A stretch of 47,017 bases of DNA from Anabaena subtropica FACHB-260. GTDB lineage: Bacteria; Cyanobacteriota; Cyanobacteriia; Cyanobacteriales; Nostocaceae. Numbering within the stretch: the stretch's first letter is position 1; every line of letters begins with the position of its first letter. The DNA lies in contig NZ_JACJRF010000044.1 of the NCBI RefSeq assembly GCF_014697105.1, forward strand, positions 1-47,017, written 5' to 3'. The notes beneath the pieces were generated by a model. It was not told the origin of the DNA, made no database searches, and saw only the letters and a program-made list of their open reading frames with translations. The position numbers were made by a program, and so were the translations under genes. Below, piece by piece: positions 11,991 through 19,012 of this stretch.

Positions 11991-12434
11991 CTAGGGAATA
12001 GGTACAGCTTGTAACTGTTGTACATGAGGTTTATATATGTACCATGTTTGATTGGTGCGATTACAAGGTAGTGGTCTATCAAAAGTCACTGTATAGTAGT
12101 CCCTGACTCTTTCAACCCGATTCCCCTCACGGTACTCGGCATTATTATTCCTATTATCACTAATACTAGCGACAAAAAACTTTTCGCCTGTCCTCACTCC
12201 ACATTTTTTGTTATTGTCTGTAATTTCCGTTGATTGGCGAAACCAATTTTCTTGTAACTTGAAAGTTGTACCCCCAGTCACTGTGACTCTTAAAATTCGG
12301 ATAACAGGTACACTTTGAGTAGTAGGAGTCTGGGAATAAACAGCCGTAGGAACCATCACACCCAAAGACGCACCTAAAATACCTAAGCAACAAATTAATT
12401 TTCGGCTATGCAACCTGGCGTTACCAATCAGCAT
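11991..12434 (-). CDS. small exported protein of unknown function
   Basis: From the ATG at 12434 the product is 147 residues. It has a clear signal peptide: a basic start (NARLHSRK), a hydrophobic core (LICCLGILGASLGVMV) and a likely cut after VYSQ or nearby. The mature part is about 110 residues, with two Cys in the mature chain (KKCGV and LPCN) that could form a disulfide. The frame extends to an upstream start at 12503 (170 residues), but that start would bury the signal peptide. No family is recognised. Confidence 0.65.
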   Translation of the reverse strand: MLIGNARLHSRKLICCLGILGASLGVMVPTAVYSQTPTTQSVPVIRILRVTVTGGTTFKLQENWFRQSTEITDNNKKCGVRTGEKFFVASISDNRNNNAEYREGNRVERVRDYYTVTFDRPLPCNRTNQTWYIYKPHVQQLQAVPIP

Positions 12435-12638
12435 TGAGAATAACCTGAATTTTACGTATGGATAATAGGGTTTATTGCATGATTTTACACTAATCTCGAC
12501 CATAGTTCAGATATCTCTGATGTCGTGATCTGTGGAAAATTCATTTTTGTTCCTATGAAACTACAAAAAATTCAGACATCTTTCCAGAGTTTTTCTTGAG
12601 TGTATTAGAAATTGGAAGATGGGAAATTATAGATAATC

Positions 12639-12669: not shown

Positions 12670-15600
12670 CTAACTTACGGATTGCTGAAACGGTATTTCT
12701 ATCCAAAATTCACAGCCTTTACCTGATTGCGAAATACACTTAATTTGTCCACCATGTTTTTCCACAACAATTTGATAGCTAATAGATAAACCTAAACCAG
12801 TACCTTTTCCTGGTTGTTTGGTAGTGAAGAATGGTTCAAAAATGCGCGATCGCATTTCCTCTGGGATACCACAACCATTATCAGCAATGCTAATCAAAAT
12901 TGTATTTTTTTCTATAAGTTTTGTACTAATTTTAATTTGTGGTTTTTCTACTCTTTCCCTAACACATATTGAATTTTCTACCGCATCAATGGCATTATTG
13001 AGAATATTCATAAATACCTGATTCATCTGGGCTGCATAGCAAACAACCGGAGGTAAATCACCATATTCTTTGATTATTTCAATATCCGGAGAATGTATAT
13101 TTCCTTGTAGCCGATGTTGTAATATCAGCAGAGTACTATCTATACCTTCATGCAGATTAACAGGTTTCATTTCTGCTTCATCGAGTCGCGCAAAAGTCCG
13201 TAATGACAAGACTAATTGAGAGATGCGTTCTGCACCAACTTTCATGGAACCGAGAATTTTCGGCAAATCATCAGTAATATAATCTAAATCTGACGCTCTG
13301 ATCTGTTCTTGTACTTCTGCTTTTGGTCGAGGATAGTTTTTTTGATAGAGATGCAGCAATTTAAATAAATTTTCTGTGTGTTCCGTAACGTAGGTGACGT
13401 TACCGTAAATAAAACTAATTGGGTTGTTAATTTCGTGTGCTACACCAGCTACCAATTGCCCCAATCCAGCCATTTTTTCACTTTGGATTAACTGGCTTTG
13501 GGTTGCCTGTAATTCCTTCAGCGTTTGAGTAATTTCTTCTTTTTGTCGCTGCGTTTGTTCGAGTAATTCTGCTTGCTGGACTCCTACTTCCAATTGAGTA
13601 CCAATCTGCACCAGCAAATCGACTTCATCCTCTTGCCAATCACGAGGGTTGGTATTTTGATAAGCACCCAATAATCCCCAGAGTTTTTCATTTTGAAAAA
13701 TAGGTGCGATTATATATGCTCTAGCTTCCATTGCTTCAATGAGAGCAACATGATAGCGAGAATAATCGCTGTTGTAAATATCTTTAACAACTAAAACTTT
13801 GCCGTTGACAAAATATCCCCCTTGGGTTTTTTGCAAGTAATTATCTGTAATCACAGACAGAAGTTTTTTGACTGGTGTCCAGCCATTACTCAAAGATTCA
13901 GCCACAAATTCCCCAGTCCAATCAGGCTGGAAACGGTAAATAATGACGCGATCAACTTCCAATAATCGCCGAATTTCTTGAGTACTGGTAGCAAAGATAG
14001 TATTTAAATCAAGGGAACGGCGAATTTTTTCGACTGTGGCGGCTAATGCTTTTTCTCTCTCTGCGGCTTTGCGTTCTCGTGTAGCGGCTTTAGCTAATTG
14101 TGTGGTTTGTAGCTGTAACTGTTGCAAGGTTTCTGCTTGTTGTAAGGCTACTCCTAGCTGTACACCAACTTGAGCTAATAAGTTAATTTCTTCATCTTGC
14201 CAGTAACGGGGTTGGGAATTTTGATAAGCTACCAGTAAACCCCATAACTTGTTCCCTTGGGAAATGGGAACAAAAACTTCATTACGTGCATATTTACCTA
14301 CTTGTTTTTCTTGCAGCAGTAAGCGTTCTGTGACAGGCTGGGGCTTAACTATTGGTGTCCAACCATCAACAATGGAATCAGCGACAAATTCACCACTCCA
14401 ATCAGGGTAAAATCGATAAATTGCTACTCGTTCTACTTCTAGTAAACCTAGTACTTCTTGAGTCGTAGTTCTAAGGATAGTATCAATATCAAGAGAGTGG
14501 CGAATCTTTTCTACAGTATTAGCCAGCGCCCTTTGTCTTTCCGCAGCTTTGGTAAGTTCGGCTGCTTGAATTTGCATTTGTTGTATATGTTCGGCTTGCT
14601 GCAATGCTACACCCAGTTGGGCGCTAATCTGGGTGAGCAAGTATACTTCATCATCTTGCCAATCACGGGTTCCCGTATTTTGATAGATTGCTAACAAACC
14701 CCACAGTTGTTGACCGTGGTAAATAGCAATAATTACATAAGCTCTAGCTTGATAAGTTTCTAATACCTTGATGTAGCAATCGCTAAAACCTGCATCATAA
14801 ATATCATTACAGACACGATAAACTTCACATTTGGTGAAACGTCCGCCTCTTGTTTCTTGTAAGTAAGTGTCTACTATTGGGGTAGCTGCTAAATCTTTGG
14901 CGCTACATTCACTGACATTTTTTTTTAATTCTGGTTGCTTTTCTTGTTCATCCATCAGAGAAATCCAAGCATCAGCCACAGATTCAAAGACAAATTCACC
15001 ACTCCAATCTGGATTGAAGCGGTAAATCGCTACGCGATCAGCATTCAGTAGCTTTCTAATTTCTAGGGTACTGGTGCGGAAAATGCTTTCTAAATCAAGA
15101 GATTGGCGAATTTTTTCAATAGCGATCGCCATACTTTTTTGCCATTCTGCGGCTTTTTCTCTGGCTTTTGCTTGGGCTAGTTGCGCTGATTGGGCTTTTA
15201 CCTGCTCTAGATAATCTGCTTGTTGTAAAGCTACTCCCAAATGTTCAGCGATTAGTTGTACAAACTCAATTTCTGGCGCTTCCCATTGTCGAGGGCTACT
15301 ACATTGATGAATACATAGTAATCCCCATAAATCTTGTCCTTTCATCAAGGGAGCAGTTATGCTAGCACGTACTTGGAATTTCTCTAGCATCTGAACGTGA
15401 CAATCACTGATTCCACCTTCATAGGTATCAGCCATTGCTTTAATTCTTCCTTGTTGATAGAGGTTGACAAACTCATCAGCAAAGCAGAAATCACCTACGA
15501 CGGGGGGTAGCTCATCGCATAGCTTGGTTTTTAGTACTGAAATCCATTCAGAACCAACATCTTCATAAATAAATTCCCCTTCCCATCCCAACTCAGGGTA

Positions 15601-15792
15601 GAAACGAAACACTCCCACCCGATCAGTATTTAATAATTGGCGTACTTCCGTCACAGTAATTTGGAATATCGTTTCTATGTCCAAAGACTGACGAATCCGA
15701 CTAATTACCCTAGACAGAGCGGTTTTCATGTCTGGTTGAGATTCTTGCTCGAAAGTTAGTTGTATGGGTTGTATCGTAGAAGAGTTTTCCAT
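12670..15792 (-). CDS. cyanobacteriochrome-type histidine kinase with four GAF domains
   Basis: The 1040-residue soluble sensor kinase has GAF1 (about 36-190), GAF2 (232-400), GAF3 (432-550), GAF4 (592-740), a coiled coil (742-775), a HisKA domain with His786 in VAHEINNP, and an ATPase domain with the N-box (929-938), DNGCGIP (971-977) and GKGTGLGLS (996-1004). GAF1 carries both a DXCF motif (DFCF, Cys103) and the bilin-attachment Cys131-His132 in [11 protein letters not shown]2 resembles the red/green lineage ([11 protein letters not shown]) with Cys339-Tyr340. GAF4 keeps that layout but has Tyr680 in place of Cys, and GAF3 lacks the region. Bilin binding is inferred. No response regulator gene is adjacent. 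Confidence 0.9.
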
Positions 15793-18199: not shown

Positions 18200-19012
18200 T
18201 TACTGCTGCTGTTGCAACCAAGTTACTAAATCAGCTTCAGTAGAAAAATCTAGTAATGCTTCAGCTAAATCCTCTAACTGAGTTGAAGATAATCCCCGCA
18301 CTCGCTCTTGTAATTCAGGGGTAATATCACCAATTCGTCTTGTCAATAGACGTTGAATTATTTTCAATTCTCCTTGTTGCAGCCCTTGTTGTATCCCTTC
18401 CTCCATCCAACTAGTGACGATCTGCATAACTACCTCTTGTTGAGTTGGTTCAAATTGAGCAATTTCAGACTGGAAAATTTCTGTTTCTTGGGTATTTAGG
18501 CGTAGGTAGGTGTCAATAAACCCAGAAATTAACTGCATCCGTGCTGGATCTAACTGCAATGTAGCTAAAAGACGTAGACACTCAGATTTTACTCTGGGGC
18601 GGTCTTGTGGTGCTATGTTCATTTTAGCCATCAGCGCACTAGCTACGGGATTTTGCTGTTGTAGGTATTCTCGCCAATTCAGGCGATTTAACTGAATAAC
18701 ATCATAGTTGAATTGCAAGACCAGCTTATTGGGAAATGCTACCTGATGAAAATTTGGTTCGGCTTTTTTGGGGCGATCGTAAGAAAATAGAGCAATAGGA
18801 TAAACTGGCAAGGCGTATTTTTCATACAATCTGGCAAAGTAACGATACATCCGCAAATCAAAAGCTTCTTGATAATAAGCTTGATGTTCTAGATGTACTA
18901 GGAAAAACGATTCTTTCTCTCTAAATCTGGCTTTTACGATTAAATCAGTTTCATATTTTTCGCCAGCAGTAACATCGGTAAATACTTCTTTGTCAATGAA
19001 GTTGATTTCCAT
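18200..19012 (-). pseudogene. N-terminally truncated Rpn/PD-(D/E)XK family (transposase-like) protein
   Basis: The 270-residue frame belongs to the Rpn family of PD-(D/E)XK nuclease-like proteins, which promote recombination in other bacteria. Visible parts: DVTAGEKYETDLIVKARF (Asp core), FFLVHLEHQA (the E/Q-x-K-type strand), and the C-terminal region with RLLTRRIGDI, typical of the DUF4351-like tail. Family members usually start about 35-40 residues earlier with an Asp-x-x-Phe-Lys-type helix; here the ATG at 19012 is preceded by an in-frame TAA 12 bases upstream and the missing part is not found in other frames. It may still be translated. The catalytic core seems retained, so loss of function is likely but not proven. 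Confidence 0.75.

Follow-up and report, generated by a model that had tools for sequence, protein, structure and literature searches.

The histidine kinase gene at 12670..15792 (-) of the window raises the question of whether its product is a light sensor and, if so, which of its GAF domains senses light. The window, that is, the whole stretch of 47,017 nucleotides that was analyzed, is the complete contig C44 (C44:1-47017) of a 5.8-Mb genome. The gene starts with ATG and encodes a multi-GAF histidine kinase of 1040 amino acid residues, which is very likely an ortholog of NpR1597 from Nostoc punctiforme. Pfam gave four GAF stretches in the kinase, the best of which is residues 38-189. All domains and residues described below are encoded on the (-) strand. 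We consider it rather likely that the gene encodes a multi-color light-regulated kinase of the NpR1597 type, in which GAF1 is a teal-DXCF domain and GAF2 is an insert-Cys domain.

GAF1 motifs, phylogeny and predicted fold

GAF1 (residues 38-189; 15226..15681) is delimited by Pfam and is placed in the DXCF lineage of cyanobacteriochrome domains by the tree and the predicted fold. Residues 101-104 are DFCF (D101-F-C103-F) and residues 129-136 are SDCHVQML. Cys103, the second Cys, is encoded at 15484..15486, and Cys131-His132, the canonical bilin Cys and its His, at 15397..15402. The initial annotation had reported both motifs, and residues and bases agree with it. DXCF domains and the conversion of phycocyanobilin to phycoviolobilin are defined as in PMC11284453.

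Orthologs were collected by a scan of the named genomes, which gave 75 loci, and by a family search, in which 57 of 60 genomes had a match. The resulting alignment consists of the window, 70 full rows and 26 partial rows. The close set (at least 65% identity) contains 76 rows, with the window entered twice (copy L001) and some genomes duplicated. It comprises 68 distinct GAF1 sequences, which include the window; most of its genus is not among them. Cys103 and Cys131 are each kept in 67 of these 68 rows, and the only row without the second Cys (L061) lacks the canonical Cys as well. An Asp two residues ahead of the second Cys and a Cys-Cys spacing of 28 residues are present in all 68 rows. The position that follows the canonical Cys is less constant: 42 rows have His, 24 have Tyr and two have Gln. 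This conservation among the orthologs indicates that the dual-Cys pattern of GAF1 is not a product of chance. The two trapped-twist Phe residues of teal-DXCF domains, Phe74 and Phe139 (beta2 and helix alpha4 positions), are both present in GAF1, and each is kept in 67 of the 68 rows. The window sequence reads as DXCF with C131-H132 at the spacing of 28, yet its ancestral Asp is D93, which has been shifted off by an insertion.

The initial annotation had proposed a GAF phylogeny as a check. Our tree comprises 89 GAF domains: three from the window, 20 from elsewhere in its own genome (from 11 of the 16 stretches taken), 62 from relatives (17 loci spread by identity) and four PDB stretches. Placements on long branches are unsure, and several of these are other GAF domains of the own genome. 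GAF1 falls within a 34-row clade, of which 29 rows are DXCF (support 100/98), and also within a nested clade of 11 rows that are all DXCF (support 100/98). TePixJ lies outside the 34-row clade and is grouped with one own-genome domain. Therefore, DXCF is not one clade, and the DXCF label needs eight changes over the tree.

AlphaFold2 models were made of the window GAF1 and, as an insertion-free control, of GAF1 from N. punctiforme NIES-2108. When the window model was searched with Foldseek, the best 50 of 1069 matches were all cyanobacteriochrome or phytochrome structures: 6oap was first, 3w2z was at rank 7, and TePixJ entries were at ranks 14, 16, 19 and below. Thus motif, 28-residue spacing, phylogeny and predicted fold all bear out the earlier assignment of GAF1 as a DXCF cyanobacteriochrome domain.

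The insertion in GAF1 and Cys losses in the genus

The window has a 24-bp in-frame insertion (15490..15513) that separates the second Cys from the ancestral Asp93. It encodes residues 94-101 (ELPPVVGD), eight extra residues just ahead of F-C103-F as compared with other orthologs, and was overlooked in the initial annotation. Codon comparison identifies D93 as the ancestral DXCF Asp. At position 101 the window has Asp, and G061 and G070, the only other carriers of the insertion among the 12 genus orthologs aligned, have Tyr. Because the ancestral Asp is D93, D101 may not occupy the DXCF Asp site. An additional Cys, Cys92 (15517..15519), stands where the insertion loop starts; it is present in the window and L050 among the 76 rows. 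The insertion is not a dispersed repeat, since a 27-bp pattern (up to three mismatches) and its 17-bp core (up to two) match only this site in the genome; a literature search on dispersed repeats gave nothing on the GAF1 insert. A sequencing error was also rejected, because the insertion is in frame and common to G061 and G070.

The window GAF1 model has a mean pLDDT of 81.6. The value drops below 50 at residues 91-95 and is 51 on average over block 91-100; the helix that follows Cys103 is split into 104-107 and 109-113. The NIES-2108 model has a mean pLDDT of 80.7, with low values only in segment 1-20 and a value of 87 for block 91-100; it shows a single helix, 104-115, which starts inside the motif (Cys105 in that protein). 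In the model, the insertion thus sits in a loose loop, and the next helix is somewhat broken.

Thirteen genomes of the genus were searched and the ortholog was aligned in 12, the window included; G065 was left unaligned, as its matches were just 54-58% identical and lay inside a different 1192-residue frame. Among the 12 orthologs, the window alone has the full set of DXCF and Cys-His, and one or both GAF1 Cys residues are lost in eight of the 11 relatives. In the two insertion carriers, G061 and G070, the canonical Cys has given way to Asp and Tyr, and the second Cys is kept in the sequence YHCF. Both Cys residues are kept in G060, G063 and G067, which have DRCF and Cys-Gln, that is, Gln in place of His132. 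The second Cys is lost in G069 (DRSL and Cys-Tyr), G039 (EHSF and Cys-His) and G062 (VHGL and Cys-Gln). In G064, G066 and G068, neither Cys is in place (CDL or HDL, and Tyr-Gln). These sequences indicate that GAF1 is eroding inside the genus and is well kept outside it, that GAF2 is not eroding, and that the window is the exception.

Substitution rates were compared by simple pairwise counts, in which change is not assigned to the window branch and dS exceeds 1 in several pairs. By these counts, the ratio of GAF1 dN to GAF2 dN is 3.0, 2.3 and 3.6 in the three insertion-clade pairs and 0.36-1.89 in the other 16 of the 19 pairs. Between the window and G061, GAF1 dN/dS is about 0.18 (0.124/0.70), and GAF1 is therefore still under purifying selection.

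The alternative that survives best is that GAF1 of the window is decaying as well. In other words, the loop with DXCF was broken by the insertion, D101 matches the motif by chance, GAF1 binds bilin poorly or has no dual-Cys photocycle, and the working sensor is GAF2. Losses in eight relatives and Gln for His132 in the other three, the lack of the canonical Cys in both insertion-carrying relatives beside a GAF2 unchanged in 12 of 12 orthologs, the higher dN of GAF1 among insertion-clade pairs (2.3-3.6 times that of GAF2), and the low-confidence loop and shortened helix of the model are all consistent with decay. However, the window retains both Cys residues, both Phe residues, His132 and a contiguous DXCF, the dN/dS with G061 points to purifying selection, and a helix after Cys103 is still predicted. 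We regard decay as a possible but tentative explanation. As for the preferred reading, in which GAF1 is a working sensor, the sequence features lead us to lean towards a photoactive GAF1; its activity is probable, not certain, in view of the Cys losses among relatives and of the extra residues ahead of Cys103.

A quite different reading of the same loop is that, in one sub-lineage of the genus, the insertion opened it and shifted the Asp, and that the window then re-formed DXCF inside the longer loop. This would be a new type of dual-Cys loop, with the sister sequences relying on the second Cys only, and with Cys92 GAF1 would perhaps be a triple-Cys domain. If it were true, GAF1 would be a sensor in transition from one mode of chromophore attachment to another; we consider it improbable.

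GAF2, the kinase domains and the surroundings of the gene

GAF2 (14602..15096) is identified by sequence motifs and the tree as an insert-Cys cyanobacteriochrome domain. It has Cys296 in the insertion loop (14905..14907; numbered 298 in most Nostoc orthologs), a DTYL motif, and the canonical bilin Cys, Cys339 (14776..14778), followed by Tyr340. All three residues are kept in 68 of 68 distinct rows, and the insert-Cys, a further Cys (Cys328) and Cys-Tyr are kept in 12 of 12 genus orthologs. In the tree, GAF2 falls in a 14-row clade consisting entirely of insert-Cys domains (100/99), inside a larger group with red/green references. GAF2 is, as judged from these residues, a second dual-Cys sensor, which the initial annotation overlooked and which is better conserved than GAF1 in the genus. 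It is the safer choice as a dependable sensor, and its activity as a sensor is highly probable.

GAF3 (14143..14490) is shortened and lacks the bilin-Cys segment in the domain alignment. In 15 of 18 pairs, none of the other four domains compared has a lower dN than GAF3, and for this reason GAF3 may matter structurally. In GAF4 (13585..14010), Tyr takes the place of the bilin Cys (SRYH), which the initial annotation did not mention. GAF4 belongs to a 10-row clade in which seven rows have no bilin Cys (100/100); Cys-His is present in the GAF4 of 14 of the 68 distinct rows, and GAF4 of N. punctiforme NIES-2108 also has no bilin Cys.

The HATPase_c domain (Pfam, residues 922-1036; 12685..13029) contains the N, G1, F and G2 motifs by motif alignment, and the HisKA match in Pfam is 20.5 bits, under the curated cut-off of 26.9. 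The phospho-acceptor His786 (13435..13437), within AHEINNP, is present in all 56 full-length rows (at least 65% identity, window included), and in these rows N, G1, F and G2 are largely kept with some positions altered. The earlier statement that His786 and the ATP motifs are intact was therefore correct. From it the initial annotation had concluded that the protein should be a working light-regulated kinase. The kinase half of this conclusion stands with the motifs; the whole is weaker than claimed, because the relatives that share the insertion have no canonical Cys and eight of 11 genus relatives lack one or both GAF1 Cys residues. It should be mentioned that six of the 11 genus relatives have shorter kinases (692-841 residues) without GAF4, namely G039, G062, G069, G066, G068 and G064 (loci L125, L150, L151, L152, L153 and L154, respectively); at least G039 also has no GAF3.

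For chromophore supply, the genome has one match to a ferredoxin-dependent (PcyA-type) bilin reductase and two to heme oxygenase. A cognate response regulator next to a histidine kinase gene is common but not required. The initial annotation had stated that no regulator is encoded nearby, and the whole-genome search agrees: none of the 124 Response_reg matches (E <=0.001) is on contig C44, and a response regulator on the contig was thus rejected.

In some relatives, the neighborhood is different. A response-regulator/kinase gene lies divergently upstream of the ortholog in at least 24 of the 75 named loci (L031-L105), and in 23 of these 24 loci an ethylene-receptor-like (ETR1_N-type) hybrid kinase is also there (for example, L104:1150-4329 (-)); both counts are lower bounds, as some of the loci are distantly related or truncated at the end of a contig. 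Neighbors were grouped by similarity, and ETR1_N and Response_reg were confirmed by Pfam on one member each. The pair lies on the side of the small membrane-protein gene, which adjoins the kinase in the window, and the window kinase has neither neighbor. We searched for the pair elsewhere in the own genome and rejected it: the best matches were just 47-54% identical, and therefore there is no clear ortholog. At C19:4306-7102 of G000, a hybrid kinase gene is followed by a response-regulator/kinase gene with 47-52% identity to the pair of the relatives; this match is without the ETR1_N part. According to PMC6682694, SynEtr1/UirS of Synechocystis combines an ethylene-binding domain and a cyanobacteriochrome in one protein. 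A limited literature search gave no report that connects NpR1597 with an ethylene receptor. The ethylene-receptor-like kinase beside the ortholog is a separate, candidate lead on signaling partners.

Two further genes were noted in the window. Directly downstream of the kinase is an ORF for a secreted-looking protein of 170 residues (11991..12503 (-)); among eight genus loci, some with about 1 kb of downstream sequence, it occurs elsewhere only beside the two insertion-sharing orthologs, with 84-86% identity. A DUF4351-domain protein (Pfam) is encoded at 18200..19012 (-).

Proposed light sensing and comparison with known systems

The proposed mechanism builds on residues, homology, kinase motifs and bilin-making genes; its colors, photochemistry and signaling are what we infer. 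Phycocyanobilin would attach to GAF1 through Cys131 and be converted to phycoviolobilin; the reversible addition of Cys103 to C10 of the bilin would then give a blue-absorbing dark state. A blue dark state and a teal photoproduct are expected because Phe74 and Phe139 would hold the D-ring twisted. Teal photoproducts absorb at about 490-510 nm. GAF2, with Cys339 and Cys296, would sense near-UV/blue light, as NpR1597g2 does, and GAF3 and GAF4, which have no bilin Cys here, are probably spacers. Isomerization of the bilin would alter the linkers and the phosphorylation of His786, and the partner regulator would be encoded away from the kinase locus.

The initial annotation had said that such domains usually sense blue/green or related pairs, which is too loose: both trapped-twist Phe residues are present, and a figure legend in PMC5240096 labels NpR1597g1 as Teal-DXCF. 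Thus blue/teal is likelier than blue/green for GAF1. That GAF1 is an ordinary blue/green sensor like TePixJ, with which it shares the DXCF motif and the spacing, seems unlikely, as it stands apart from TePixJ in the tree, and the Phe pair and the label of its likely ortholog speak for teal. That GAF1 is a non-bilin GAF domain with incidental Cys residues is very improbable, since nothing was found for it other than the erosion in the genus, and it was rejected on its placement in the DXCF clade, with spacing, conservation and fold also against it.

The orthologs of the genus form a natural series in which GAF1 differs in its Cys state beside an unchanged GAF2: DXCF and Cys-His (the window), insertion without canonical Cys (two), Cys-Gln (three), second Cys lost (three) and both lost (three). 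With this series, one could test how color depends on each Cys, on the loop with DXCF and on the Asp of that loop, and on which sensor, GAF1 or GAF2, the kinase depends.

As a sensor, the protein is one further NpR1597-type kinase; the type is already known, and the window adds a small variant of the GAF1 loop. In PMC5240096 (Cho et al. 2017), NpR1597g2 of N. punctiforme is described as a near-UV/blue domain of the insert-Cys type; its insert-Cys is residue 298, and a C298A variant is published. PMC6121604 reports that NpR1597 has a red/orange cycle and gives 3.5 h for the dark reversion of NpR1597g4. The four Cys residues are numbered 105/133/298/341 in 40 of the 68 distinct rows, N. punctiforme NIES-2108 among them, and this numbering together with the published labels makes it very likely that the kinase is the NpR1597 ortholog. 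The likeness consists of a DXCF g1, an insert-Cys g2 at the residue number of these 40 rows and, by inference, four GAF domains with a kinase. Probable differences from NpR1597 are the eight-residue insertion before the second Cys in GAF1 of the window and the lack of a bilin Cys in its GAF4.

The GAF domain of TePixJ (blue/green DXCF; PDB 4glq, 3vv4) resembles GAF1 in the DXCF second Cys, Cys-His and the fold. Its residues C494, C522 and D492 are given in PMC6955287, and C494 and C522 are 28 apart, equal to the GAF1 spacing. However, TePixJ belongs to another subclade, is a chemotaxis-receptor protein and has no insertion. GAF2 resembles the UB1/VO1-type insert-Cys domains (NpR1597g2, NpF2164g3) in its insertion-loop Cys and DTYL; beside these, its canonical site is Cys-Tyr, as in all 68 distinct rows. 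Finally, G061 and G070 resemble the DXCIP domains, which have the second Cys only, in that they keep the second Cys without the canonical one. They read YHCF rather than DXCIP, whereas the window retains both Cys residues.
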